From a virus, in IMG/VR virus record IMGVR_UViG_3300006917_000108, positions 1 to 28,739 of that record: a stretch of DNA of 28,739 nucleotides; one strand, 5' to 3'. This document shows positions 3,364 to 28,739 of this stretch, one piece after another. A model generated the notes under the pieces. The model saw only the letters and a program-made list of their open reading frames with translations. It did not search any database and was not told where the DNA came from. The position numbers and the translations under genes were made by a program. The stretch's first letter is position 1. Every line of letters begins with the position of its first letter.

Positions 3364-6300
3364 ATGGCCACGCCCCCCAAGCAGATCCTGACGGAGCCCC
3401 TCCCCTCGTTCTCCGAAGCTGCGAAGCAGGTACCCGTCCCGGCGGCGCCTGCGTTCGCGGCTCCGACTACACCGAGCGGGACGGAAGCACCGGCTCCTCG
3501 TGCGCCTACGATGGCGGAGGTCCCGGCGGGCGCCCAGTTCTTCCCGTACATCCCGCGCGCGTACGACACGCCCGCTGGCCCGGGCCTTGGCTATGCCCGC
3601 ATGAACCCGGCGGAGGCGTCCAAGGCGTTCGCGGGCACGAGCAAGATGGCGGCCCCGGAGCAGCTGGCGGCGCGCGAGATGATCTACACCTCGCTGACGG
3701 GCCGCCCCCCGCCGGTCACGGTGGAGCAGATCAAAGACGCGCAAGACACCCAGTGGTGGGAGCACCTCATCGGGTGGCTGGAACCCCTCGACCTCCCGCG
3801 ACGCGGCGCGTACTACCTCGCGGCGACGGCATCGGAGAAGGCGCTCCCTGACAGCGGCACCCCCATGGGAGACACGCTCGAAGGCATCGCGGGGAAGGGC
3901 GCGCGACTGTTCGGCGGGCTCCACGCCACCCTGTTTGGGGGCAGCCCCAGCGACGAGTACCTGAGCGGCATCGAAGAGATGGGCCGCAACATCTACAAGA
4001 CCGCGTCCAGCGACAAACTCGTCAACGAGTGGGCGAACACCCCCGGCTACTACTTCACGAGCCTCACCAACCCGACGGCCGAGAGCGCCCTCAACTATGT
4101 GATGCCGAAGGAGCTGGCCGCGCGGCTGGAAGCCTCGGCACCCACGCGGGCGCACCGGAAGGTCTACGAGTACCTCCAGTCGGACCTCGGGCGCCTCATC
4201 TTTGGCATGGGCGTGGACATCCTGTCGGACCCGCTGATGCTGTACGGCAGCGCGGGCAACTCCAGCAAGGTCATCCATGTCGGCGAAGACGCCTATCGGC
4301 TGAGCCGCACGGGGGTCGCCGCGTCGGAAGCCGTCGCGCGCAGCGCGGGCGTCACCGTGGACGACGCCATGCGCACGGTGATTCGTGCCTCCGGAGATGC
4401 CGCGTCGTCCGAGACGCAGGCGGCCCGGCAGGCGCTCGTAAAGGCGGAGCTGGATGCCGTGGCGCGTGCGGACAAGTTCGCATCCGACGCCGCGCACCTT
4501 CACGCGAACGCGGCGAACCCCACCGCCGCGCTCCAGCCGCTGCTGGACGAAGCCACGCAGGCGTTCGAGGCGGTCCGCGAAGCCGCCAAGACCCAGAGCA
4601 AGGCGGCGGCCCAGCTCCCCGCTGCGGAAGAAGCACTGGCGGCCATGCGTCGCCGCATGACGCAGGTGGCGGCGAACCCCCAGAAGGCGGCGCGGGCAAT
4701 CCGCAAGCTCGCCGTGCAGATGGAGCGGTCCTCCGCTGCGGAGCGCACCTTCGCGGACAACACGCGGCGCGTCCTCGATGCGGCCCAGAACGAGCGCCTG
4801 CTGACGCAGCCCCTCTTCTCGGCGGGGAAGACGCTCCGGACGGAGGGGTATGTCTCGAAGATGGGCACGCTGCCCGTCCATGTCCCCTTCGGGGAGGTGT
4901 CGTACAGCCTCCTGCCTGAGATCAAGCCGGTGACCAAGCTCGGCAAGGCGGCCGGAAACCTGCTCGCTCCCTACAAGTTCGCGACGCTCTCGGACCGGGT
5001 CGCCACGGCGAAGGCGGTGGGACGGTCTGCGTACGAGGTGCTCTCCCCCGGAGAGACCATCGCCTATGTCGGGCAGAACATGCTCCGGAAGGGCGTGACG
5101 CATCCGTACCGCGTGTTCCACGACATCATCGGACGCACCTTCGGCACGCGCTTCGTGCAGCCCATGCTCATGCGCCTGTCCGCCATGCAGAGCGTCGGCG
5201 GCCTGAAGGGAACGCAGGAGATGTTCCCCGCCGCCCGGGTCGTGTACGGCAAGTGGGTCGAGCTGCCGGAGGTCGCACCGGAGCTGTGGCAGAAGTACCA
5301 GAGCGCCGTCGAGCGGTTCTTCGAGATGACCGCGTCGCAGGACCAGTATCTGCGTAGCACCATGGCCAGTGTCGTGGAGCAGGCGCGGGCGGTCGCGAAG
5401 ACGCGCACGGCCATGGCCAAGGCGGGCAAGATCACGGACCCCGTGCTCTCCGCGCGCTACGCGGACAACGCGTACGGGACGCAGGATGTCATCAACGAGG
5501 TCATGGACGCGCTGGAGACGGGCGCCGATGTCCTGACCCCGGGCACCCAGCGGTACCGCGCGGACCTCGCCGCGCTGGCTCCCGTCATCTCGCAGATTCG
5601 CGACGACATCGTGAACACCTTCGGGAAGACCGTGGACGAGGTGAACCAGAGCCTCCCGGCGCTGGCGCGCTTCATCACGGGGGACGAGACCTTCGCGAAG
5701 CTGGCGAGCGAGGCGCTCGCCGAGACGGACCAGATGGCCGCGACGGTGGCGGCGCGCCAGTCCCGTGCGTCCAGCATCCTCGCGGCGCATATGCCGACGC
5801 TTCAGGCGCGCACCCAGTGGCTGCTCGGAGCCATGGACGAACTGGACCCCACGAAGCTCGGGACGGCGCTGGACCGCTACCTCGCGCGGACCGGCGGGAA
5901 AGAAGTGACCCCCGCGCTGCTCCGGACCGTCGTGCTCGACATGATGGGCGGAGACGCCAAGCGGTCGCAGGCGGTGCTCCGGCGCATCGCGCTGTCGTTC
6001 GGCAAGACGGCTCCGGCGGACGGCGTGCATGTCCTCGCGGGCATGCTCACGGGGCGCATCACGGCGTCCCCGGGCAAGACCATCCTTCAGGCCATGCGCG
6101 ACCTCGTGACCGAAGCGGACGAAACCATCCGGCTTGCGCAGGCCATGCGCGAAGGACGCCTGACGACCAAGCAGGAAGTGGACGCGCTCATGCAGCTGGC
6201 CACCCAGACCACGCGCATCGAGCTGGCGCAGGCGCGCTCGCTGCTCGGCGAGCAGGGGTTCATGCAGGGCATGGTCATGGTCGAGGCTCTGGAGGAGCCC

Positions 6301-9300
6301 AACCTCATCCCGGCGCTCGTGCGCACGACGGGGAAGGACGAGGCCACGGTGAAGATCGCCGTCGCCTCGCTCCTCCGTGCGCGGGAAGGCACGCGGGTCA
6401 TGGCGACGGCGGCGGACATGAACAAGGCCGCGCTGCTCGCGGCGATGGACAAGCTCCATCTGCCCCCCGGAGCGCTGGACGATGTGTGGATCAACGCGAC
6501 GCTGGACAGCAGCGTGGCGGAGCAGCGGATTCGCGGCGCCATCACGGCGGCGGGCCCGAACGCGGAGACCGCCATCTTCGAGCGGCTGAAGCTCTCCGCG
6601 CTCGGTGGCAACCGGGGCGGCGCGCTCGACGCGTTCACGGAGCAGCAGCTCCGGAACGCAGCGGCGGAGATCGTTCGCGCGAGCCAGCAGGCGACGACGC
6701 TCCCCGTGTTTCCGGACGCAGCGGTAGTTGCGGCGGCTCGGAACCAGCTGACGATTGACGAGGCGCATCTGGCCACGGTGAAGCAGGCGCTTGCCGATCT
6801 GGAAGCCGCCCGGGCGGCTGCGGCACCGGATGCTCCGGAGATCGTGAAGCTCTACACGCAGGCCGAGAAGGACGCCATCGCGGACGCCGAAGCGCGGGTC
6901 GCCGCTGCCCGGAAGGCGTACGAAGACGCGGTCCGCAACGCGCCGCCGCCTGCCCCACCCCCTCCGCCGCCCCCTCCCCCTCCCCCGCCTCCCCCTCCGC
7001 CCGCGCCGTCGCCGGTCCCGCCTCCTCCCCCTCCTCCGCCCCCGGTGCCGGCACCCCCCGTGCCGGCACCCCCGTCCACCGCCGCCATCGAAGCAGCGGG
7101 CCAGAAGATCGTGGCGGCGGACGCCGAAGTCGTCCGTGCGCGCCAAGTCATCGACGCCAAGGTCCTGCGTGGAGCCTCGCCGACGGTCCAAGAACGGCAG
7201 GATCTCATCAAAGCGATGTCCGCGCGCAAGGCGGCGCAAGAAGCGTACGCTGCGCTGGCGACGACCTTCGGCGAACTCCCGCAGGCGCAGTCCCCGCTCA
7301 TCAAGGCAGCGAGCCAAGGTCCCGCTGGGGACGGCGCGCGGCTGACTCCGGCGGAGCTACAGGTCCAGCGAGACCGCCTCGCAGCGGACCCGCTGCGTCG
7401 CGCCATCGAAGCCAAGTTTCCGCAGGGCGGGACGGTCAAGGATTTGATGGACTTCGCGGCGTCTCTGCGCAACGATCCGGGGCTCGCGGCGGCTGCCGGC
7501 GACAACAAGATGGAAGCGCTGGACTGGATGGTGCTGGACAAGCTCCGCGACATCGGCGGCGAGCTTGACCGTGCGACATTCTCGTGGTTCCAGCCCGGGG
7601 ATGTGTACAGGGACACCGCTTCTCCCGGCTGGGCGGGCGTCGCCGTCTACCCCACGAGCCCCGGGGAGCGGATTCAGGTCATCTTCCAAGACTCGGCGTA
7701 CGATGCGACGCGGCAGCCTACGATTGGGGTAGGACCACTTGCGGTCCACGAGCTGGTCCATGTCGGCACGCAGATCCGGCTCGAAGTTGGCCGCCTCGAC
7801 CCCTACGCGCCACTCGCGCTCCGAGAAGCCGCGCAGGAGATTTCGAGCCTGCACCGACTGGTGATGGACGAACTCCTCAATCTGCACCCACGGAATACGC
7901 CGAAGTACTACGGCCTGACCAACGAGCATGAGTTTCTCGCAGAGGCGCTGAGCGACCGCGCGTTCCAGACGCTGCTGAAGACCATCAAGGTCCCGTCCAC
8001 CGCCAAGAAGCCGACGACGGTGTGGGGGCGCTTCACGCGCGCCGTGGCCTCGCTGCTCGGGTTCGCCAAGAAGGATGAGAACGCGCTCACGCAGGCGTAC
8101 GCGCGCTTCGAGAAGCTCCTCGAAGCGTCGTCGGATCTCGAAGCGCGGACCGCGTACTGGGGGATGACGGGCAAGGGGTCGATCAAGACCCCCGCTGGCG
8201 TCGCGTCGATTCCGACCATGCCGGAGCAGATCGCACTGGACGAAGCCATCCGGAAGCTCCGCGAAGCCCAGCAGAGCGCCATGGACCGGGTGCGCGGGCG
8301 CTCCGAAGCGGCGCGGCTCGGGCGTCTCCGTAGCGACACAAGACGCGCGGAGCAGGCGATGACGGACACCAAGGCTGCGATTTCTTCTGCGGAGGCGAGT
8401 CTCCAGCAGGCGCAGACGGCGTGGAAGTCGCTGATGTCCCGGTATGTCTCGGAGACGACGGGAGATCTCCGCGACGCGTTCGATTCGCTGCTCCAGAACC
8501 TCCCGGAGTCCGGAAAGGTCCAGCGCGCGCAGCAGATCGCAACCACCGCCGAAGGCCAGCTCACCCAGCTTGCCGCCCAGCGGACGGCGCTGACCGAAGC
8601 CGAAGCCAAGCTCGGGCTCCGCATCCCGACGGCGCTCCCGCAGGGGTTCGCCGCGACGACGGACCTGCCCACGGTCAACCCGACGCGCGTGTTCTATGTC
8701 GCAGACGCCGACCTCGCGGGAGTCACCGCTGACAACATCGACAGCCTCGCCACGCTGACCCGCCCGAAAGACGGGTATGCGCTCGTCGCCATCGCGCCAG
8801 ACGGGACCGTGACCAAGGAAGCCGTGCGCCACACGCTCGGCCCCGTGTCGCCGCTCCGGAATGACGCCGTCGATGCGGCCATGGACTACCTGAAGTACAA
8901 CCCGCCCACGGAGCCCACGGGCAAGCTGAAGCTCCGCGAGCTGGACACATGGGAGCGGGCGCTGTGGACCCGGTTCCGCGCGGCGACGACGGGGCTCTCG
9001 GAGGAGAAGGTTCTCGAAGCCGCCATGCTCACGCTGCGGGATGCCCCCGTGGCGACGCGCGACACTTTCGGGAAGGCCATCCCGGGCGTCACCCCCCAGA
9101 CGCTCGGCAAGCGGTACGGGGACATCGACCCAGCCATCCGGCCGCTCGTGGAGGAGATGAACGGGCTGCTGAAGGCGTACGAGCGCATGTTCGTGCAGCA
9201 CGGTCTCGACTTCATCGCGGACCCGCTCCGCATGCTGAAGGATTGGGGCGTCAACCAGTACATCCCGCACATCCCGGTCTCGCGGAACATGGTCGCCGCC

Positions 9301-11955
9301 GGCAAGCTCTCGCCGGAGCTGCTGGCGCGCGGCGTCCGCAACCGGCCCGCCGGGTTCGCGTCGCTCGACAGCGCGCTCTCGACGGACATGCCCCAGCGGC
9401 ACGAGCGGCGGCTGGCGGGCACCGTGGCGGAGATCATGGCGGTCTCGAACGACCCGCTGAGTGCCCTGACGCTGGACCCGGCGAGCATCATCTCTCGGTA
9501 CACGAAGGCCAACGGTGCGCTCACGGCGCAGGACTTCCTCGTCATGATGCTTCGCGGGGGCGTGATCAAGGCGCTGAAGGCGACGCCGGACGAGAGCGTG
9601 GTGCAGATCGCCCTCCGGGAGCAGATGGTCCCGCTCTTCGCGCGTCCCAACCTGACGCGCGACCTCGACCTGCTGTTCGGCGCCGACGCGGCAGCGTGGG
9701 CGTCCGCGAATGTGGACCCGGCGGAGCTGGATGTCATCCGGGCCTCGATTCGCGCGTGGTCGGAAGGCGCGCGGGGCACCAAGCGCCTGAAGGACATCTC
9801 GCCGTTCGCCTCGTGGCTCGGCGAAGTCCCGGCGGTCCAGCAGGCCATCAACATCGAGGAGCTGCTCCTCGACATCCGGGCGGCCCAGTGGCGCAAGAAC
9901 GGGGCAGCCGCCACGCTGTTCAACATCCGGGACGAGTTCGACGCCGCGCACGCGGTCGCGAACGCAGCGGGGGCGCCCATCTCGGACGCCGAAGCATGGA
10001 AGACGGTGGCCTCCAAGGTCAACCGGCTGGCCTCGGAGGTCGGGTCGGAGATCCGGGTGGACCCGAAGATGCTCAACGCGTGGTTCGATGGCGGCCAGAC
10101 CAGCTGGCAGCTCTATGTCCCGGCGACCGTCGCGCAGAACATGCTCGACACGCTCGACTTCGCGTCCACCATGGAGCGTTCGCTCGAAGGCGCTGGCGGA
10201 ATGGTCAAGTCCGTCGCCGACAAGATCAACAACTTCTACAAGGGCTGGTACACCATCACCCAGATGATGCACCATGTCGGCAACGCCATCGGCAACATCT
10301 TCAACAACGCCATCGACCTCGGACCGCTCGGGGCGCTGAACCCGAAGACCAACCTCATCGCGACGCAGTTGACCCACGCCGCGTCCTACATGGACGAGTA
10401 CGGGTCGCTCATGAAGGCGGCGGAGGCGCTCGAAGCCCCGAAGCACGCGACGGAGTCCGTGTGGGACTTCACGCTGCGGAAGGCGCGCCTCCAGTCGTTC
10501 CGCACCATGGGCATCGCGAAGCTGCTGGACACGGGCATCGACCTCGGGGACGGCGTGTTCCGCGAGGCGGACACGGCCATGCGGCTGATGCGCGAACGCG
10601 GCGTGTTCACGGGTGGGCACAATGTCTACCTCGACCTCGACCGCTACGAGCAGGAGATGGCGGAGGTGTTCCGGCTCATGAACCAGCCGGAGGCCGTCCA
10701 GAAGCTCCAGCGCACGGCGGTCAACGCCCGCGACGCGATCATCCTGACCATGCCCGTGGCGTTCACGGGGGGCCTCTCGGGCTTGGGCATCGTCATCCCG
10801 CCCCGCATCGGGCGCATGATCTCCGGATTCGTGGAGAACCAAGCACGCGTCACGAACTTCGTGGCGAACATGCGCCGGTCGGGCAGCATCGACGCGTCGG
10901 TCCAGCACATGAACAAGTTCCTGTTCAACTACGCGGACCTGACGGCCGTGCAGAAGACATGGCTCCGCACCGTGTTCCCATTCTTCACATGGACCTTCAA
11001 GAACGCGTATCTCCAAGCGGGGATGATGCTCGAACAGCCCATGTTCTACCAGCTCTTTAGCCAGATGCTGCTGATCCATGGGCCCCGGGCGGTCGAAGCG
11101 TACGAGCGCGACATCGACTTCAAGGGTCGCTACCCCGCGCACCCGTGGAAGCGGTACTCGGTCAACTGGCGTCTCCCCCACGCGCGGTACCGTCTACGGC
11201 TTCCGGTCCCGGAGCACCCGACGCTCTTCCTCGAAGGCTTCCGCACGCCGTTCGAGAGCGCGGCAGAGACCATGGGGCAGGTCGCGTCGTTCGCGGCGGG
11301 CGTTCCCGGCATCCCGGAGACGCTGCTCGGACGCGGAACGGAAGCGGCAGGTGGCTCCATGAGCAAGTTCCGCATCATGAGCCAGATGCACTTCGCCGCG
11401 CGGTTCCTGTTCGAGAAGGCGTTCGACTACAACATCTACTACGACCGCCCGCTCTACCAGCTCGACAGCGCCAAGCCCGTCGGGCAGACCCTCGCCGCGC
11501 TCCACCGGACCTCCACTTCGGGGGTACCGTTTGTTGCGCCCATGGCCGCGCAGGTCCACAACGCGCTGGCCCGCGTGAGCGGCTACGGGGAGACCGTTCG
11601 CTACAACCCGAGCAAGAACATCTACGAGCCGGTTCAGGTTGCGAACCCCGGGTTCGCGCACACCTTCATGAACATGCCGTACAGCCAGCTGCTACGCACG
11701 CTGATTGGCGCCGCCGATGTCTACCAGTCCTCCATGGCGGAGTCGCTGACGAACGAGGCCGGCGTACAGCAGCTCTACGCCGTCCCGCAGGATGTGCGGT
11801 ACTTCGACGCGCTCACGGGCATCGGGCTCACGCAGGAAGACCCCATCGCGCGCATCCGGATGGTGGAGCGCGACGCGCGCGATATGCAGTTGCGAGCCAT
11901 GGAGGCAGGCGGAGGCGTGCTCTCCTACGACAAGCCCTTCATCTCCAAGAGGTAG
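3364..11955 (+). CDS. Giant polyvalent ejection protein with a zinc-metallopeptidase domain, 2863 aa
   Basis: The start is ATG after AAGGGGGG, 15 bases past the previous stop. An N-terminal helical region has a phage-typical segment VDILSDPLMLYG (about 284-295). Long helical and coiled regions follow to about 1190. Residues 1194-1237 form a proline tract with a few Ala, Val and Ser. Next comes a metallopeptidase-like domain: HELVH at 1462-1466 gives the HExxH pair, and NEHEFLAEAL at 1520-1529 supplies a likely third-ligand Glu. This pattern is known from peptidase domains of large polyvalent phage proteins. The C-terminal third has HHVGNAIGNIFNN (from 2303), FNYADLT (from 2521) and VFPFFTWTFKNA (from 2537), which resemble conserved motifs of giant phage proteins. 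Its length and place after two ejection-protein candidates suggest it is packaged and injected. Proteolysis of host or phage proteins is inferred. Confidence 0.8.
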   Translation: MATPPKQILTEPLPSFSEAAKQVPVPAAPAFAAPTTPSGTEAPAPRAPTMAEVPAGAQFFPYIPRAYDTPAGPGLGYARMNPAEASKAFAGTSKMAAPEQLAAREMIYTSLTGRPPPVTVEQIKDAQDTQWWEHLIGWLEPLDLPRRGAYYLAATASEKALPDSGTPMGDTLEGIAGKGARLFGGLHATLFGGSPSDEYLSGIEEMGRNIYKTASSDKLVNEWANTPGYYFTSLTNPTAESALNYVMPKELAARLEASAPTRAHRKVYEYLQSDLGRLIFGMGVDILSDPLMLYGSAGNSSKVIHVGEDAYRLSRTGVAASEAVARSAGVTVDDAMRTVIRASGDAASSETQAARQALVKAELDAVARADKFASDAAHLHANAANPTAALQPLLDEATQAFEAVREAAKTQSKAAAQLPAAEEALAAMRRRMTQVAANPQKAARAIRKLAVQMERSSAAERTFADNTRRVLDAAQNERLLTQPLFSAGKTLRTEGYVSKMGTLPVHVPFGEVSYSLLPEIKPVTKLGKAAGNLLAPYKFATLSDRVATAKAVGRSAYEVLSPGETIAYVGQNMLRKGVTHPYRVFHDIIGRTFGTRFVQPMLMRLSAMQSVGGLKGTQEMFPAARVVYGKWVELPEVAPELWQKYQSAVERFFEMTASQDQYLRSTMASVVEQARAVAKTRTAMAKAGKITDPVLSARYADNAYGTQDVINEVMDALETGADVLTPGTQRYRADLAALAPVISQIRDDIVNTFGKTVDEVNQSLPALARFITGDETFAKLASEALAETDQMAATVAARQSRASSILAAHMPTLQARTQWLLGAMDELDPTKLGTALDRYLARTGGKEVTPALLRTVVLDMMGGDAKRSQAVLRRIALSFGKTAPADGVHVLAGMLTGRITASPGKTILQAMRDLVTEADETIRLAQAMREGRLTTKQEVDALMQLATQTTRIELAQARSLLGEQGFMQGMVMVEALEEPNLIPALVRTTGKDEATVKIAVASLLRAREGTRVMATAADMNKAALLAAMDKLHLPPGALDDVWINATLDSSVAEQRIRGAITAAGPNAETAIFERLKLSALGGNRGGALDAFTEQQLRNAAAEIVRASQQATTLPVFPDAAVVAAARNQLTIDEAHLATVKQALADLEAARAAAAPDAPEIVKLYTQAEKDAIADAEARVAAARKAYEDAVRNAPPPAPPPPPPPPPPPPPPPPAPSPVPPPPPPPPPVPAPPVPAPPSTAAIEAAGQKIVAADAEVVRARQVIDAKVLRGASPTVQERQDLIKAMSARKAAQEAYAALATTFGELPQAQSPLIKAASQGPAGDGARLTPAELQVQRDRLAADPLRRAIEAKFPQGGTVKDLMDFAASLRNDPGLAAAAGDNKMEALDWMVLDKLRDIGGELDRATFSWFQPGDVYRDTASPGWAGVAVYPTSPGERIQVIFQDSAYDATRQPTIGVGPLAVHELVHVGTQIRLEVGRLDPYAPLALREAAQEISSLHRLVMDELLNLHPRNTPKYYGLTNEHEFLAEALSDRAFQTLLKTIKVPSTAKKPTTVWGRFTRAVASLLGFAKKDENALTQAYARFEKLLEASSDLEARTAYWGMTGKGSIKTPAGVASIPTMPEQIALDEAIRKLREAQQSAMDRVRGRSEAARLGRLRSDTRRAEQAMTDTKAAISSAEASLQQAQTAWKSLMSRYVSETTGDLRDAFDSLLQNLPESGKVQRAQQIATTAEGQLTQLAAQRTALTEAEAKLGLRIPTALPQGFAATTDLPTVNPTRVFYVADADLAGVTADNIDSLATLTRPKDGYALVAIAPDGTVTKEAVRHTLGPVSPLRNDAVDAAMDYLKYNPPTEPTGKLKLRELDTWERALWTRFRAATTGLSEEKVLEAAMLTLRDAPVATRDTFGKAIPGVTPQTLGKRYGDIDPAIRPLVEEMNGLLKAYERMFVQHGLDFIADPLRMLKDWGVNQYIPHIPVSRNMVAAGKLSPELLARGVRNRPAGFASLDSALSTDMPQRHERRLAGTVAEIMAVSNDPLSALTLDPASIISRYTKANGALTAQDFLVMMLRGGVIKALKATPDESVVQIALREQMVPLFARPNLTRDLDLLFGADAAAWASANVDPAELDVIRASIRAWSEGARGTKRLKDISPFASWLGEVPAVQQAINIEELLLDIRAAQWRKNGAAATLFNIRDEFDAAHAVANAAGAPISDAEAWKTVASKVNRLASEVGSEIRVDPKMLNAWFDGGQTSWQLYVPATVAQNMLDTLDFASTMERSLEGAGGMVKSVADKINNFYKGWYTITQMMHHVGNAIGNIFNNAIDLGPLGALNPKTNLIATQLTHAASYMDEYGSLMKAAEALEAPKHATESVWDFTLRKARLQSFRTMGIAKLLDTGIDLGDGVFREADTAMRLMRERGVFTGGHNVYLDLDRYEQEMAEVFRLMNQPEAVQKLQRTAVNARDAIILTMPVAFTGGLSGLGIVIPPRIGRMISGFVENQARVTNFVANMRRSGSIDASVQHMNKFLFNYADLTAVQKTWLRTVFPFFTWTFKNAYLQAGMMLEQPMFYQLFSQMLLIHGPRAVEAYERDIDFKGRYPAHPWKRYSVNWRLPHARYRLRLPVPEHPTLFLEGFRTPFESAAETMGQVASFAAGVPGIPETLLGRGTEAAGGSMSKFRIMSQMHFAARFLFEKAFDYNIYYDRPLYQLDSAKPVGQTLAALHRTSTSGVPFVAPMAAQVHNALARVSGYGETVRYNPSKNIYEPVQVANPGFAHTFMNMPYSQLLRTLIGAADVYQSSMAESLTNEAGVQQLYAVPQDVRYFDALTGIGLTQEDPIARIRMVERDARDMQLRAMEAGGGVLSYDKPFISKR

Positions 11956-22468: not shown

Positions 22469-23367
22469 GAGCCACCCCACGAGCACCAGTCGAACGCCGA
22501 GCACTTGCCGTAGCGTCCGACGCACGAGGTCTCGGTGAGGGACTTCGGCCACTCGTCCGGGCGCAGTCGCCCGGCCAGCGTCTCCGCCTCCAGCTTCGCC
22601 ATCTCGTGCCGGACGCGCAGGATGTTGCGCGGCCACTGGGCGTCCGCGTGCGGCGCAGCTTCGAGCGGCGGGCGCGCGAACTTCGGGGGCGGCGTCGTCT
22701 GGATGAAGTTGAGGATGACGCCCTTGAAGTCACCCCCGAAGAAGGCTCGCCCGAGGTGCTTCATCCCGATGAACTGCCCGTGCACCGAGTACCCGGACAC
22801 GCTGTCGCCCTTCATCACGCTCGTCGTCTTGTGGTCCCAGAACCACACGCCACCGCTGGCGTCGCGGGTCACGAGGTCCACACGCGGCGCGTAGTAGATG
22901 GGCTCCCCGTGCTTCGGGTGGCCCGGGGCGTCCAGCGTCCCCAGCTCCGCCTTCCACACTTCCTCGACGGCGATGATGGTGTGCTTCTCCTCGCCCCACC
23001 ACGCTCGGTAGTAGTCCAGCATCTTGCACGCCATGGAGACATGGTCCATGGAGTACTCGCCTGCCCGCGCTCCCGCTTCCGCTGCGGCGTACGGGTCCAG
23101 CCACTTGTTGGGGTCGTCCCCCATCTGCTCCGCCTGAAGCCGGCGGTAGTGGTGCGCCAGCACGAGGTGGACGGCCCTCCCCCGCGCCTGCGCTTCGGAC
23201 CCTCCCCCGACGACGCGCGTGTCGCCACCGGACGAGGTGCCCTTGCGCATGTACTTGAAGGCGTACTCGCTGGGACAGTGGAGGAACGCGCCGTGCGGGG
23301 ACCACCCGAAGTCGGAGGGCCCCGCGTTCAGCAGGATGGGTTCGGAAGGAAGAGCGTCGGTCGTCAT
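22465..23367 (-). CDS. Cas4-like PD-(D/E)XK nuclease with candidate Fe-S cluster, 300 aa
   Basis: ATG at 23367 overlaps the TGA of the helicase gene (ATGA). Nuclease motifs are in the RecB/Cas4 order: H67 (GRAVHLVLAHHY), Glu135/136, D164 (RVDLV), the D-x-K core D178-H-K180 (WFWDHKT), and Q198. C31 near the N-terminus together with C282, C289 and C295 at the C-terminus gives the one-plus-three cysteine arrangement that holds a 4Fe-4S cluster in Cas4 and AddB. These nucleases resect DNA ends to 3' single strands. The coupled SNF2-like helicase and the RecA-like ATPase downstream suggest an end-resection and annealing pathway for recombination-dependent replication. Confidence 0.82.
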   Translation of the reverse strand: MTTDALPSEPILLNAGPSDFGWSPHGAFLHCPSEYAFKYMRKGTSSGGDTRVVGGGSEAQARGRAVHLVLAHHYRRLQAEQMGDDPNKWLDPYAAAEAGARAGEYSMDHVSMACKMLDYYRAWWGEEKHTIIAVEEVWKAELGTLDAPGHPKHGEPIYYAPRVDLVTRDASGGVWFWDHKTTSVMKGDSVSGYSVHGQFIGMKHLGRAFFGGDFKGVILNFIQTTPPPKFARPPLEAAPHADAQWPRNILRVRHEMAKLEAETLAGRLRPDEWPKSLTETSCVGRYGKCSAFDWCSWGGS

Positions 23368-25100
23368 TCGTCCCCGTCTATCACGATGTCAGAGATGTCA
23401 AGCTGGTCGAGCATGGCCGCGACCTCGTCCACCAGCCCGTCCTTGTCGTCCATCCCCGTCAGCGACTGGCGGAGCATGGCGACATCGTTGTCGCCCGTGA
23501 GCTGCGCGACGCTGGGCAGCTTGTTGAGCAGCATCTCGGCGACGCGCTCGTCCACGGTCTCCTCCGCGATGATGTACTGGATGAGCACCGGGCGCTGCTG
23601 GCCAAGACGCGCCACGCGCCCCTCGTACTGCATGACCTGCCCCGGGGTCCAAGGGAGCATGGCCACGATCATGAGGTCCGCGTCCTGAAGGTTGAGGCTC
23701 TCCCCGATGCTGTCGCCCGTGGCGATGAGGAACGCGGGCCCCGGGCTCGTCAACCACGCTTGGCAGGTCTCGTCCCGGTCCGCCGGGGAGTCGTCCCCGT
23801 GCGTGTGCCAGATGGTCGCCGTGTGCTCCGGCATGGCCTTCTTCGCGGCAGCCCCCAGCACATCGACATCGTTGCGGCGCCCCGTGAGGATGACGACCTT
23901 GTGCCCCGCACTGGCGGCCTCCTGCATGGCGTCCACCATCCACGCGCGCTTCCGGCTGGCGGCTTCGGCCAGCCGCACCTCCAGCGCGCTTTCCTTGCCT
24001 TCCTTGGTGGCCCGCTTGATGGCGTTGACCCACGAGCCGGCGGCCTTGTTCTGCTCCGCCACGGGCAGGAACACGCACTGGCGGCGCTTCGCGGGGAGCA
24101 TGGCGGCGACCTGTTCCGGCAGCACTCGGTGCACGACATACCGCAGCCGGTACTCCAGTTCTTCGAGGTTGCTGCTGCCCTTGTCGTCCATGCCCCCGAA
24201 GGTGCCGGGGCGCGCCGCGCAGTAACGGGTCGCCCAGTCCCAGTAGCGCCCCCATGTCCCGGGCTCCACGAGGTCGAGCTGGGCCCACAGGTCGCGCACC
24301 CGGTCGCGAATCGGGGTCGCCGTGAGCGCGAGACGGAACAAGACGAGCTTGCTCAGGTCGGCCGCGCTGGCGGCGATGTTCTCCAGCTTCTCGAAGTCGA
24401 GCGTGCCGTCGCTGTTCGGGACGGCCTTCCACCGCTTGTGGCTCTTCGAGCGGTGGATCTCATCGAACGCGACCGTGTGCGGGCGCAGGATGGCCAGCTC
24501 GTTGATCGCCGCCGGAAGGCTCTCCCAGCTCACGATGACCAGCGGGCGCGACACGCGCTTCGCGTAGTCGAGCAGGTCTTCGTGCTTCTTCTTCCGGGCA
24601 CTCGGCGGGAGCCACACATGCGGTTCAACCGTCGTGCGGGCCCGCGCCTCGCGGTACCAAGTGAAGAGCGCCGCGCTCCGCGTGACGACGACATGCGGAC
24701 CCTCGTGGCACAGCGACCACAGCAACCCGGCGAGCGTCTTCCCGGAACCGCACGGCCACCAGAGGTGCGACCCCGCGCGCTCCACCGCGCGGGTCAGACC
24801 CTCGCGCTGGTACTCGGTGAGCAGCCCGGGGATGTCGGGGCGCACCAGACCTTCTTCTACGCGTCGCGCGAGACGCGCGGAGAAGTCGAGCGTCGGTCGG
24901 GGTGCCGGCGGTCGCTGCCACTCGAACCGCATCCCGGACTCGGCCAACCGTTCGGCCAGCGTATTCGCGCCGTGGTCGGGCACGATGATCTCGACCCGCC
25001 CCGAGCGGTCGAGAAGCCTCGCACCGGGTACGAGGGTCTTCACCGCCTTCACGAACTCACCATCTCCCGCCTTCGGCCACACACTACACACGAGCTGCAC
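23364..25100 (-). CDS. SF2 (SNF2-like) DNA helicase/translocase, 578 aa
   Basis: The start is GTG with GGAGG six bases upstream and promoter P3 ahead of it. The N-terminal 90 residues are a separate small domain, possibly HARP- or DNA-binding-like. Motif I CGSGKT is at 117-122, motif II DEIH at 213-216 and motif III TATP at 260-263. Motif V is GESLNLQDAD and motif VI QYEGRVARLGQ at 491-501. The final acidic tail is short. This is the DEAD-like two-RecA-lobe core found in phage helicases next to Cas4-like nucleases. It would unwind or remodel forks and recombination intermediates. The length and motif order are normal. It overlaps the nuclease gene by four bases. Confidence 0.9.
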   Translation of the reverse strand: MQLVCSVWPKAGDGEFVKAVKTLVPGARLLDRSGRVEIIVPDHGANTLAERLAESGMRFEWQRPPAPRPTLDFSARLARRVEEGLVRPDIPGLLTEYQREGLTRAVERAGSHLWWPCGSGKTLAGLLWSLCHEGPHVVVTRSAALFTWYREARARTTVEPHVWLPPSARKKKHEDLLDYAKRVSRPLVIVSWESLPAAINELAILRPHTVAFDEIHRSKSHKRWKAVPNSDGTLDFEKLENIAASAADLSKLVLFRLALTATPIRDRVRDLWAQLDLVEPGTWGRYWDWATRYCAARPGTFGGMDDKGSSNLEELEYRLRYVVHRVLPEQVAAMLPAKRRQCVFLPVAEQNKAAGSWVNAIKRATKEGKESALEVRLAEAASRKRAWMVDAMQEAASAGHKVVILTGRRNDVDVLGAAAKKAMPEHTATIWHTHGDDSPADRDETCQAWLTSPGPAFLIATGDSIGESLNLQDADLMIVAMLPWTPGQVMQYEGRVARLGQQRPVLIQYIIAEETVDERVAEMLLNKLPSVAQLTGDNDVAMLRQSLTGMDDKDGLVDEVAAMLDQLDISDIVIDGDE

Positions 25101-25197: not shown

Positions 25198-26484
25198 ATG
25201 GAAACCGTGACCGAGAATGAAGTCGCCGAGCTGGTGGACCAGCTCCCCGACGAGAGCTGGCTGAAGCAGTACCTCTACTACGCCGTCCGGCAGTCCGACG
25301 CGTCCATCGCCTACCATGTCGGGGTCGGCCTCGGCGTGCTGGCAGCGGTCGCGCCCCCCACGCTGAGCATCGACACGCTCCCCGGCGGCAAGGTGAGCGC
25401 CAACCTCTGGGTGCTCATCGTCGGGCGCCCCGCCGTGGACCACAAGTCCACCAGCATCCGTGTGGGGCGCGAGCTGCTCGCGTGGGCGAACCCGCTGTCC
25501 ATCGGCGAGGACCCCGCTTCGTACGAGGGGCTGCTGGAGTCGCTGGGCCAGCAGCCCAGCCAGCTGCTCGTCATGGGCGAGTTCGGGGACTTCCTGTCGA
25601 AGACGGAGGGCGGCTCGAACAACTACATGTCGAAGATCAAGGCGGGGCTCACCCGCATCTTCGACGGCGACCCCATCGAGCGCCGTCTGGCCAAGCGCAC
25701 GGTCCGCATCCCGCAGCCCCGGCTGTCCATCCTCGCTGCCGTCAACCCGTCGTTCCTCGAAACGCACGCGGAGATGCAGGACTGGGAGGGCGGGTTCATG
25801 TCGCGCTGGATGCTCGTCCACGCGCACCGCGAGCGGGAGCTGTTCGCGGCGTCCCCGGACGACGCGCGCCGCGACTGGCTCGTCCAGTGGCTCGTCAACG
25901 CCGGCAACTCGCAGGTCGGTCGGTGCATGGGGCTCGACGCCGGGGCCAGCCAGCTCTGGTACGACTGGAGCAAGGATCTGTCCGAGCGACTGGAGAAGGA
26001 CCAGTCCCTCGCCCGCGTCGCGGCCCACGGGCGCACGGCGACCCACGCCGCGAAGGTCGCGCTGCTCGCCGCGTTCGACTACGGGGCGGCCCGGACCAGC
26101 GGTCAGTGGCTCATCACGGAAGACGCGCTGCGCTTCGCCATCGGGCTCGCGGAGCTTCACTATCGTTCGGCCATGGGGCTGGCCGAGCTGGCATGCGCTG
26201 GTCGCGACATGCGAGAGCGACGGAATGTCCTGAAGGTCATCGGGTCGGACTGGACCAGCTACGGGCAGGTGCTGCGCGGCGCCGAGCTGCTCCGGTCGCG
26301 GTGCGACCGCATCATCGAGACGCTCGTGGAAGAGGGCGCCATCGAGTCGCACCTCATCGGGTCGAAGATGCACTTCCGGCGTCGGCAGGACGACACCGTC
26401 GAAGAGCCCGAGTGGGCGTCGAATGTCTCCAACCTCATGCGCGTCGCTCGCGGCATGACGACGGACGCCGACGACCTCAACTAA
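25198..26484 (+). CDS. DUF3987-like replicative ATPase/helicase, 428 aa
   Basis: The start is ATG (METVTENEVAELVDQLPDES) with TGGAG eight bases upstream. The frame continues upstream into sequence antisense to the helicase gene, which I reject. The pattern follows DUF3987 P-loop proteins: WVLIVGRPAVDHKSTSI places a degenerate Walker A at 76-84, LLVMGEFGDFL (E128) replaces the usual DE-type Walker B, and DWEGGFMSRWM supplies a likely arginine finger. The last 100 residues have helical, winged-helix-like character. Relatives act as phage primase-helicase or helicase-like initiators. It is the only rightward gene in the right half, divergent from the SNF2-like helicase and followed by two hairpins. 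Confidence 0.72.
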   Translation: METVTENEVAELVDQLPDESWLKQYLYYAVRQSDASIAYHVGVGLGVLAAVAPPTLSIDTLPGGKVSANLWVLIVGRPAVDHKSTSIRVGRELLAWANPLSIGEDPASYEGLLESLGQQPSQLLVMGEFGDFLSKTEGGSNNYMSKIKAGLTRIFDGDPIERRLAKRTVRIPQPRLSILAAVNPSFLETHAEMQDWEGGFMSRWMLVHAHRERELFAASPDDARRDWLVQWLVNAGNSQVGRCMGLDAGASQLWYDWSKDLSERLEKDQSLARVAAHGRTATHAAKVALLAAFDYGAARTSGQWLITEDALRFAIGLAELHYRSAMGLAELACAGRDMRERRNVLKVIGSDWTSYGQVLRGAELLRSRCDRIIETLVEEGAIESHLIGSKMHFRRRQDDTVEEPEWASNVSNLMRVARGMTTDADDLN

Positions 26485-26576: not shown

Positions 26577-26912
26577 TCAAGGTGCGAACTCCAGCGCGGC
26601 GACGAGGGCCTCGGCTTCGGTGTCGTAGTCAACACGGGACTGCTTCTTCGCGAACCACGACCAGCGGTTGCCTGACTTCCAGTATTCGTCGTCATACCAA
26701 ACGCTCGCGTGCGGGTCGCCCCACGCCTCTCGCACCAGCGCGAGGAGGCAACCCAGCGTTGCGGGATCGCTGAGGTCGGGAAGGCACCCGTGCTCAATGG
26801 CGAGCGTGTGCTCGGTGATGCGGTCACCCCCGAGCACCCGCATCCCCGGCATCCATTCCCACCCTGTACAGGCGACGGCGCGGCGGGCGAGGGCGATCAT
26901 TTCGTCGGTCAT
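26577..26912 (-). CDS. Conserved phage protein of unknown function, 111 aa
   Basis: ATG at 26912 overlaps the TGA of the DUF3310 gene (ATGA) and has GGAGGAG just upstream. MTDEMIALARRAVACTGWEW, MPGM, and LPDLSDPATLGCLLALVREA are hallmarks of a small family common in phages and prophages. The C-terminal TEAEALVAALEFAP is also conserved there. No function is known to me. The central variable segment with WYDDEYWKSGNRW is a short beta stretch. It is the last gene of a three-gene leftward operon ending at the tandem hairpins. Confidence 0.78.
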   Translation of the reverse strand: MTDEMIALARRAVACTGWEWMPGMRVLGGDRITEHTLAIEHGCLPDLSDPATLGCLLALVREAWGDPHASVWYDDEYWKSGNRWSWFAKKQSRVDYDTEAEALVAALEFAP

Positions 26913-27238
26913 CGGCTCCTCCGCTCGATCTCGAAGTCGAGGTACTGCTTGGCCTTGCGGAGATCCTCGACGGCGCGGGCCGGGTCCTTCTTGCCGGCGC
27001 GCGAGATGTACTTCAGCGCGTTGCCAAGGTTGAACCCAAGGTCCCACGCTTCAATCACCTTGATGCACTCATAGGGGTTGTCCGCCCCACCATAGTGGTC
27101 CGGGTGGTTGACCGCCGCGTCCTGCTCCGGGAAGCGGTGTGTCAGGCAGCGTTCGCCCTCGCGCGCGACGGGGCGGCGGCACGCGCGTCCGTTGGCCACC
27201 ATGCCGCACCGGGCACGGATCGTGTAGACCCGGCTCAC
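26909..27238 (-). CDS. DUF3310 protein with an N-terminal Cys/His cluster, 109 aa
   Basis: GTG at 27238 overlaps the previous TGA (GTGA). The DUF3310 domain occupies 43-106: VNHPDHYGGADNPYECIKVI, then AWDLGFNLGNALKYISRAGK and AVEDLRKAKQYLDFEIE. This small helical domain is common in phages, sometimes labelled nucleotide kinase, but its activity is not established. Residues 11-34 add C11, C20, C31 and H34 in a spacing that could bind one zinc, an unusual front part that may recruit DNA or a partner. The operon context is early and regulatory. Confidence 0.8.
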   Translation of the reverse strand: MSRVYTIRARCGMVANGRACRRPVAREGERCLTHRFPEQDAAVNHPDHYGGADNPYECIKVIEAWDLGFNLGNALKYISRAGKKDPARAVEDLRKAKQYLDFEIERRSR

Positions 27239-27888
27239 TGGAACACCGGCATGGAAGAGATGGCGTCGAGCGCGTTCTCGTACCCCGCGTCGTCCTCCGG
27301 GAGCGGGCCCCCGTGCGCGGCTTCGAGGAGGACCCGCAGATGCGCGAGGCGCGCGTCCGACGCGACCCACAGCCACTCCGTCTTGCCGTCCGCGAGACTG
27401 AAGTGCTGCACCCCGTCGAGGACGAGCAGCTTCATGCTGCGCCACTTCGCCATGCGGAGGTCCGCGAGCGTCGGCTTGTTGCGCCCCTTCGCGGTGCTGC
27501 ACAGACCTGACGCGGCGCGTCGCGTGGCGGCAACGGCGTCCGCCGTGGCGAGGACCCCCGTGAACCGCAGCCAGTTGCGCCACGCCCGCGTGTAGAGCGC
27601 CTGCGACGACGGGGTGAGGTCCAGCGCGAGAAGATCCGTCTCCGGCGCGTCGGCGGGGACGCCACGGCGGAGGATGGCGGAGACCGCCGCACTGTAGCTG
27701 CCGACCGTCATCACGGACCGGTTGTTGTCCATCATCCACTTCGCGAAGTCGGGAAGCCGGTCGTCCGGCGGAGCGACGGGGGGCCGCCCCTTCCGGGCGG
27801 TATCGACGGTGGGGCCGACGGGTTCGCGCGGGGTGGCCGGCGCCGCCGGCATCGGCGGGAGAGGTAGGGTGTCGTTGAAGAGTTTCAT
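27235..27888 (-). CDS. Protein with a tyrosine-recombinase-like SAM domain, no catalytic domain, 217 aa
   Basis: The start is ATG (MKLFNDTLPLPPMPAAP) with AAGGAG five bases upstream. The frame opens 19 codons earlier, but that start lacks a ribosome site. After a Pro-rich leader, residues from about 45 to 110 (LPDFAKWMMDNNRSVMTVGS, then SQALYTRAWRNWLRF) look like the SAM-like core-binding domain of tyrosine recombinases. The rest does not contain the R..HxxR..Y residues, so strand exchange is unlikely. A DNA-binding or architectural role is inferred. It heads a three-gene leftward operon served by the promoter at 27943-27970. Confidence 0.55.
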   Translation of the reverse strand: MKLFNDTLPLPPMPAAPATPREPVGPTVDTARKGRPPVAPPDDRLPDFAKWMMDNNRSVMTVGSYSAAVSAILRRGVPADAPETDLLALDLTPSSQALYTRAWRNWLRFTGVLATADAVAATRRAASGLCSTAKGRNKPTLADLRMAKWRSMKLLVLDGVQHFSLADGKTEWLWVASDARLAHLRVLLEAAHGGPLPEDDAGYENALDAISSMPVFQ

Positions 27889-27936
27889 CTCGCTCCTTCT
27901 GGTGGGTGAGGTGCTGCTCCCTATATGGCGGGAACG

Positions 27937-28084
27937 AGTATTCATTTACATATCTTCTTCTGGTTGTCAAGGATGGGGACGACCGTACAGGGGGTATTGT
28001 GAACTCTGTCACCGTGTAATGTATAAGTGTATATAGAATAATAAATCACAATATTTCATGTAAGAAGATATGAAAGTGAATACT
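27937..28084. repeat. 23-bp inverted repeat (21/23) around a 102-base spacer
   Basis: Arm 1 (27937-27959) and arm 2 (28062-28084) are reverse complements except at two positions. Each contains AAGAAGATATG followed by TGAATACT, pointing leftward in arm 1 and rightward in arm 2. Arm 1 overlaps the leftward promoter at 27943-27970; arm 2 has no matching -35. The spacer is AT-rich. Confidence 0.7.
27943..27970 (-). promoter_or_regulatory. Leftward promoter for the three-gene operon 27888-26577
   Basis: Read leftward: a perfect TTGACA (27970-27965), a 16-base spacer, then TAAATG (27948-27943) in an AT-rich context, 55 bases before the start codon. It lacks the CGGCAAC spacer element of P1-P3, so it is probably regulated differently. 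Its -10 half lies within the inverted-repeat arm. Confidence 0.55.
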
Positions 28085-28184
28085 AATCCACGGGTATATA
28101 TAGGAGTGAACTGTACGGCATTAGGAGCATAAAGGAACGACTTTCGAGAAACCGGAATAATCGTCGCGCCTCTTTCCTCCGCGC

Positions 28185-28421
28185 CCATGGCGCGGGCGCG
28201 GGGGGGCGGCCGGGGCCGCTGGCCCATGGGGCCTCGGGCCATGGGCCATGGGGCCGGGGGCCCCCGGGGCCATGCCCCATCCGGCCCCGCCCCCCGGGGC
28301 GGGGGGCCTTGCGCCCCACGGGGGCGGGGGGCCATGGCCCCGAACGCAAGAAGCCCCCCGTGGCCATGGACCACGGGGGGCGGAGGATGCGAGAGGGGCC
28401 CCCGGGGAGGGGGCCCCATGG
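28185..28421. repeat. Cluster of seven CCATGG palindromes in a G/C block
   Basis: CCATGG occurs at 28185, 28224, 28239, 28246, 28332, 28364 and 28416, usually extended by GG and CC on both sides, with GGGCCC and CCCGGG runs between. Spacing is irregular. The block is not plausibly coding. It directly follows the AT-rich island. Confidence 0.65.
28353..28381 (-). terminator. Strong terminator hairpin of the right-edge gene
   Basis: A perfect 11-bp stem (GCCCCCCGTGG / CCACGGGGGGC) with a seven-base loop CCATGGA, itself containing a CCATGG palindrome, is followed leftward by TTCTTGCG. It lies 52 bases after the stop at 28433. Confidence 0.65.
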
Positions 28422-28432
28422 GGCCGGCTACG

Positions 28433-28739
28433 CTACGGGAGCGTCGCGCTCCATGCCCCGTTGGCGAACACGCTGTAGGCGCGTCCGTCGGCCAGCATGG
28501 CCCGGGCCGTGGCCATGTCCACGGACTGGACTCCCGCCGCCGTGGCGACATGCACGGGGGCCGGGGCCGGGGGCGGCGGGGGCGGGGGCGGGGCCATGGG
28601 GGCCGGAGGAGCGGGGGGCGCGGGGATGGGGGCCGTCGGGGCCACGGTCGGGGCGGGGGCGCTGATGGCGGCCACGGGGGCCGTGACAGCCGCCACGGTC
28701 GCACGGTCCGCCCATTCGCCCGACGGAAGCTTGACGAAC
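28433..28739 (-). CDS. C-terminal part of a protein with an Ala/Pro-rich linker (partial)
   Basis: The frame is open to the right edge and ends at 28433. It reads FVKLPSGEWADRAT at the edge, then an Ala/Pro/Val linker with an eight-proline run, and a C-terminal domain VHVATAAGVQSVDMATARAM with YSVFANGAWSATLP. A GTG at 28696 could start an 87-residue protein, but the frame upstream of it is also protein-like (GEWADRAT), so I read the gene as entering from outside. The linker resembles the proline linkers of the giant protein and the ssDNA-binding protein. Function is unknown. The downstream hairpin at 28353-28381 supports this stop. Confidence 0.6.
   Translation of the reverse strand, partial: FVKLPSGEWADRATVAAVTAPVAAISAPAPTVAPTAPIPAPPAPPAPMAPPPPPPPPAPAPVHVATAAGVQSVDMATARAMLADGRAYSVFANGAWSATLP

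Follow-up and report, generated by a model that had tools for sequence, protein, structure and literature searches.

Results

The window analysed here is the entire IMG/VR record IMGVR_UViG_3300006917_000108 (28,739 bases), which is viral, may be a fragment, and contains no detectable terminal repeat. Its GC content is 68%, and close to its right-hand end lies a single AT-rich island (27915–28154) with 40% GC, where a sequence-only reading of this DNA had described about 250 strikingly AT-rich bases; the lowest stretch of the same size elsewhere in the window has 57%. For 27937–28084 the GC content is 34%, against a lowest value of 53% for same-size stretches elsewhere. Leftward of the island, on the minus strand, follow the gene for a 217-aa protein (27235–27888, 217 codons), which has a good ribosome-binding site, AGAAGGAG (27893–27900, minus strand), a DUF3310 protein gene (26909–27217; PF11753) and a small gene of 111 codons without an assigned family (26580–26912). 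These three converge with a plus-strand DUF3987 gene (25198–26484), from which the gene for an SNF2-type helicase (23364–25100) diverges; the helicase forms a phage replication block together with PolA, exonuclease and Sak4 genes further leftward. Rightward of the island, a Pro-rich gene on the minus strand ends at 28433 and is cut by the window end (28433–28739). The genes that flank the island have the same direction, so that it is not a strand switch, and the only gene start between the island and the right window end is that of the Pro-rich gene itself, at the very end. Elsewhere in the window, 3364–11955 on the plus strand is a single 2863-aa ORF that probably encodes a tape measure protein (weak PHROG match, E 0.0018), and a tRNA scan of the window gave no hit.

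Within the island are two 23-nt arms, one gene-proximal (27937–27959, minus strand; AAGAAGATATGTAAATGAATACT in the outward, leftward reading) and one gene-distal (28062–28084, plus strand; AAGAAGATATGAAAGTGAATACT in the outward, rightward reading). They are complementary at 21 of 23 positions (91%) and lie 102 nt apart, which reproduces both figures of the sequence-only reading; its remark that the distal arm points rightward toward no gene is also borne out within the window, where the next gene is the minus-strand one that ends at 28433. Among 12 inverted repeats in the whole window (at least 18 nt, within 300 nt), the arm pair has the highest percentage complementarity. The best ungapped inverted repeat of 27890–28180 scores 17, and the maximum in 1000 dinucleotide shuffles was 12; shuffling was performed on the island itself, so that the test allows for its AT-richness. 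No third copy of the arm with at most 3 mismatches was found in the window, and 100 shuffles gave 0 matches. The mirror symmetry continues for about 15 bases outward of the arms and ends on each side in TATAGG, the proximal module being bounded outward by TATAGGG (27919–27925, minus strand) and the distal one by TATAGG (28099–28104, plus strand).

Scans of viral contigs revealed one near-identical contig (L004/L006, 99.6% identical to the window), which was treated as the same virus and left out of the independent count, and five more diverged contigs with the helicase at 69–86% identity. Two of these five, L014 and L011, reach the island, while L010, L012 and L015 end before it, giving three independent genomes at the island (the window, L014 and L011). 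The viral contig scans yielded no additional genome that reaches it, and profile searches of genome contigs with the alignments of the 217-aa protein and of the DUF3987 protein gave no relative. Contigs L005, L007 and L008 (28–38% GC), which had come up as arm-pattern matches, were dropped; L008 has a 22-nt exact arm match and L005 and L007 have none in the comparison, and all three were put down to chance, the collection being very large. L014 and L011 each have one AT island, in the same place (L014 317–495; L011 776–937), upstream of a 217-aa gene that is 56% (L014) and 51% (L011) identical to that of the window. The DUF3987 protein is 91–94% identical to the window's in four contigs. Since the 217-aa protein shows only 51–56% identity in two of them, this putative control gene evolves much faster.

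The inverted pair is present upstream of the same gene in both L014 and L011. The sequence-only reading had proposed looking for the two arms in related phages, where flanking genes kept without the arms would speak against it; flanking gene and arms are both kept in the two relatives, an outcome in favour of the arms. Although the arm sequence differs from one genome to another, the partners of each pair have remained alike: those of L011 agree at 20 of 24 positions with each other and at 16–17 of 24 with the arms of the window. When the proximal arm with about 18 further nucleotides was aligned to the mirrored distal half, the mirror scores were 41 (window), 35 (L014) and 44 (L011), values reached by 0, 1 and 0 of 2000 shuffles per genome, respectively. 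Beyond the arms, each of the three genomes keeps the mirrored match as far as TATAGG on either side, with TATAGGG on the proximal side in L014, CATAGGG on the proximal side in L011 and TATAGG on the distal side in both. Changes on both sides occur in 8 of 35 mirror pairs, a count that none of 500 shuffles reached and that compares with 0–3 in slid controls. This covariation was counted on an alignment made without structure and comprises three sequences only, and we regard it as suggestive rather than final. L014 is the weak case: its distal arm has a 3-nt shift, and its ungapped inverted repeat, taken by itself, is not significant, as 45 of 1000 shuffles equalled or exceeded its score of 10; in L011, 0 of 1000 shuffles were as good. 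No other place in the window, L014, L011, L010, L012 or L015 came near the scores that the arm and inner-block motifs have at these sites. From its persistence with covariation, the arm pair is probably functional in some way.

Between the arms lies a conserved inner block, GTGACAGAGTTCACAATACCCC (27991–28012, minus strand), within which GTGACAGA and CAATACCCC are invariant in the three genomes. The distance from CAATACCCC to the distal arm is 63 nt in the window, 65 nt in L014 and 36 nt in L011, and that to the proximal arm is 40, 42 and 66 nt, respectively; in L011 the inner block is shifted by about 27 bases. The gap between the arms is 102 (window), 106 or, in the ungapped register, 109 (L014) and 101 (L011). 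Because the gaps are near-constant and the CAATACCCC distances differ, the arm spacing, at 101–109, was kept while the inner block moved. Strict 12-turn phasing of the arms was considered and dropped owing to the ambiguous register of L014: in the ungapped register the spacing is off by 7–8 bp, and the helical phase depends on the register chosen. An inner inverted repeat, TATTGTGA (27995–28053; copies at 27995–28002 on the plus strand and 28046–28053 on the minus strand), is a perfect 10-bp repeat in L014, and its distal copy was not seen in L011.

Directly before the proximal arm stands TTGACA (27965–27970, minus strand), a possible −35 hexamer of a leftward promoter; TTGAC is invariant at this place in the three genomes and is absent before the distal arm. 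Sixteen nucleotides past it, within the arm, the candidate −10 hexamer is the weak TAAATG (27943–27948, minus strand). The sequence-only reading had called this a good leftward promoter. Its −35 (27970–27965) stands, whereas the pair of near-consensus hexamers 16–18 nt apart that is typical of sigma-70 promoters is not complete here, and a scan for consensus promoters and terminators returned 0 of each. TTGACA and TAAATG constitute a half-good putative promoter, the spacer of which is the proximal arm. At the edge of the island, a G+C hairpin, CCGCGCCC-ATGGCGC-GGGCGCGG (28179–28201, plus strand), overlaps a 27-nt non-coding run (28180–28206) that is invariant in the three genomes; among viral contigs, a 23-nt part of it was found only in the window and the three contigs that also span the island. 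The run could serve as a protein site or as a terminator that has no T-tract. An Rfam search of 27880–28450 gave no match at E up to 1, and RNA folds of three minus-strand stretches had z values of 0.53 to −1.98.

Searches of Pfam and NCBIfam with the three 217-aa homologues (both at E up to 10) gave no match, nor was there a PHROG match, and a tblastn query of 50,697 phage records with the 217-aa protein returned nothing. The one profile match, to a XerA chain, is weak (E 0.065). AlphaFold models were obtained for the window protein (pLDDT 79) and for the L011 homologue with its own sequence first (pLDDT 68). Foldseek alone gave nothing significant (best E 0.51 in PDB and 0.082 in BFVD), and the superpositions reported here are of the models re-aligned to its top chains. 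For the window model, the best rows are tyrosine recombinases: XerA matches with Z 9.6 over 147 aligned residues at an rmsd of 13.0, which is taken to reflect a differing domain orientation; residues 40–114 superpose on XerD with Z 8.3 and an rmsd of 2.8 over 74 residues; and SroF of phage phi3T is also listed (Z 5.5). Residues 41–114 of the L011 model superpose on XerA with Z 10.2, an rmsd of 2.2 over 74 residues and 31% identity, and recombinases are among its first 20 rows. Assignment of residues 41–114 as the core-binding domain of a tyrosine recombinase (N-terminal, SAM-like, four helices) is well supported by the models, on the basis of the re-alignment and of the weak profile match, which is to the same XerA chain. 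This support does not extend past residue 115, where the window model is Cre-like (rmsd 3.0 over 82 residues) and the L011 model gives PH-like rows. An HxxR motif occurs in none of the three homologues, which end after beta-strands and two helices and do not have the HxxR and catalytic tyrosine box of active recombinases; judged from its sequence, the 217-aa protein is not an active recombinase. An R-x-G-R-P motif at residues 32–36 is invariant in the three homologues, and we take it to resemble an AT-hook core, for which there was no database match. The protein is tied to the arms by its position and fold alone.

Discussion

We propose that the island is a control region with paired operators, bridged by the 217-aa protein or another regulator, and put the probability of this reading at about 0.5. 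It draws on what computation gave for the sequence at hand, namely the arms, their extension to TATAGG, their covariation, their near-constant spacing and no further sites, and on the modelled core-binding domain of the 217-aa protein. The island would control the short leftward operon that comprises the 217-aa protein, the DUF3310 protein and the small gene. One binding site would be present in two mirror copies about 100–110 bp apart, flanking a flexible AT-rich spacer; the proximal copy would overlap the −35/−10 spacer of the operon promoter, at its predicted position, and the distal copy would act as an auxiliary partner of this proximal operator. A regulator, most likely the 217-aa protein with its recombinase fold and no catalytic C-terminus, could then bind both sites and bridge them, looping the DNA, and one product of the operon would presumably switch it off or adjust its expression. 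As is typical of looped operators, the locus has a site in two copies close to a putative promoter, their role as operators being putative too. Among the interpretations offered by the sequence-only reading, a looping operator or control hub is consistent with the kept pair, its covariation and its spacing, whereas a replication origin gained no specific support. Points against paired operators are the conservation of the mirrored TATAGG, which a plain operator does not account for, the weak −10, and the small number of independent genomes, which is three.

MrpR (YopR) of the Bacillus phage SPbeta is a recombinase-fold repressor without recombinase activity that binds a short repeated element (PMC10516654). 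The present locus resembles MrpR, and SroF of phi3T (9rd5/9rgl), in combining a phage recombinase-fold protein without recombinase function and a small conserved DNA element at promoters (PMC10516654; PMC8612738). MrpR is longer, with domains to residue 320, and its 15-bp binding element recurs at several places in the SPbeta genome (PMC10516654). Here, in contrast, the protein has 217 aa with an AT-hook-like N-terminus, there is one mirror pair beside its own gene, and binding is putative. Of the features of an MrpR-type repressor, which binds a conserved short element and represses promoters, candidate sites and a modelled fold are present here. A second relevant system is RcoLS20 of plasmid pLS20, a regulator that bridges a pair of operators 75 bp apart in the vicinity of divergent promoters (PMC4207663). 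The likeness lies in two sites, one of them overlapping a promoter, a short spacer and a single regulator, which here would do the bridging (PMC4207663). The 75-bp spacer of RcoLS20 has a static bend, its sites are repeats of an 8-bp motif and the regulator is a helix-turn-helix tetramer (PMC4207663); here the spacing is 101–109 bp, there is one 23-bp site on each side and the candidate protein is of recombinase type. If binding and bridging hold, the locus would work like a cross of MrpR and RcoLS20.

General-term searching of the open literature found no paper on this locus. Recombinase-fold repressors are known from SPbeta-like Bacillus phages, and the MrpR authors suspect a wider distribution (PMC10516654). 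The example proposed here, from a lineage of GC-rich phages, would be shorter and looks unrelated. The hypothesis of binding and bridging is easy to test, because the site pair is visible, covarying and in one place, and arms that change together offer a way to spot such switches in unannotated phages.

A bolder proposal, speculative and in our view doubtful, gives the fold a more direct part: a recombinase-fold protein without its catalytic end, tethered by its AT-hook, would still pair two inverted sites as recombinases do and use this synapsis as a regulatory switch; the closed complex formed by the mirror sites across the AT-rich tract would control both outward promoters and possibly the opening of an origin. 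If true, a synapse of the recombination type would have become a regulatory loop in an uncultured phage lineage.

The mirrored TATAGG could also mean that each mirror module (AAGnAGATnnGTAAGTAAGTACT ... TATAGGG) is a promoter for an RNA polymerase that is specific to the phage or modified by it. The leftward module would then drive the operon and the rightward one an untranslated RNA of about 100 nt that ends near the hairpin at 28179–28201. Symmetry reaching TATAGG on both sides in three genomes (CATAGG on the L011 proximal side) fits such a divergent pair, as does the invariant 27-nt run with the hairpin, which follows the rightward module. We nevertheless consider it rather unlikely: the offset from arm to TATAGG varies from 32 to 37 nt, more than one contiguous promoter would allow, TTGAC occurs at one side only, and no RNA polymerase gene was recognised in the window, a record that may be incomplete. 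The rightward RNA predicted on this reading, moreover, folds no better than its shuffles (z −0.24) and has no Rfam match.

In some replication origins, for example herpes simplex oriS, inverted sites for the initiator surround a tract rich in AT, and the arms could likewise be initiator sites that flank an unwinding element, the initiator being the 217-aa protein or another phage protein. An easily unwound AT-rich tract is present (34–40% GC against 68%) and is the sole such island in the window, L014 and L011 alike; near-identical inverted sites surround it, and the phage replication block with PolA, the SNF2-type helicase, the exonuclease and Sak4 lies leftward. AT-rich, easily unwound tracts are, however, expected of promoters too. 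The cumulative GC skew, put forward in the sequence-only reading as a check, does have its minimum in the window near 27.5 kb, but this is accounted for by gene strand and falls where the record ends, and the minimum of L014 lies 2–3 kb off the island. The genes on either side run in the same direction, there are no iterons, and TTGAC beside one arm fits transcription better. The mirror sites around an AT-rich spacer are as in oriS-type origins, whereas the lack of an initiator and the presence of two sites only are not. An origin is unlikely on this balance.

It is improbable that the arms act by pairing with each other, as a long-range stem in a transcript or as extruded single strands of a DNA cruciform. 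Folded as DNA, a single strand of the island is indeed more stable than its shuffles (z −2.63; 2 of 200 equally stable), which is expected of any inverted repeat, and the arms covary, but two copies of one protein site would yield covariation equally. RNA pairing would favour G-U over A-C. Mismatched cells of the arms comprise 4 G-U and 5 A-C, equally common and without an RNA bias, which points to copies of a double-stranded protein site in DNA rather than to an RNA stem. The length of a loop of about 100 nt would, furthermore, be free to vary, whereas the arm spacing has been maintained.

The 148-bp non-coding stretch between near-perfect inverted repeats could suggest the remnant of a MITE-like mobile element with 23-bp terminal inverted repeats; this is very improbable, given flanks without a target-site duplication (GGAACG and AATCCA), no second copy, the same place in diverged relatives with covarying arms, and symmetry that continues past the arms. 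A chance repeat is scarcely credible even in AT-rich DNA, where match odds are raised, as none of 1000 island shuffles was as good in either the window or L011 and the pair is kept in relatives. Two further candidates were rejected, an attachment site (no integrase was recognised, and the locus is single) and a protelomerase site (the arms are non-contiguous and catalytic residues are missing).

Several observations concern the surroundings of the island. The four contigs that span it (the window, L006, L014 and L011) all end 0.4–0.8 kb rightward of it, either within the Pro-rich gene or shortly before it, the window end coinciding approximately with the start codon of that gene; either GC-rich Pro-coding repeats break the assemblies, or the genome end is near. 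A DUF3310-like stretch in L015 (10177–10289) lies beyond the replication genes, on their far side, which indicates that gene order is rearranged there. CCATGG occurs at 40 sites in the window, where base composition predicts about 10, and L014 (29 against 5.5) and L011 (15 against 2.4) likewise have more than expected; its sites crowd in the GC-rich DNA to the right of the island, with 8 in 28185–28594.
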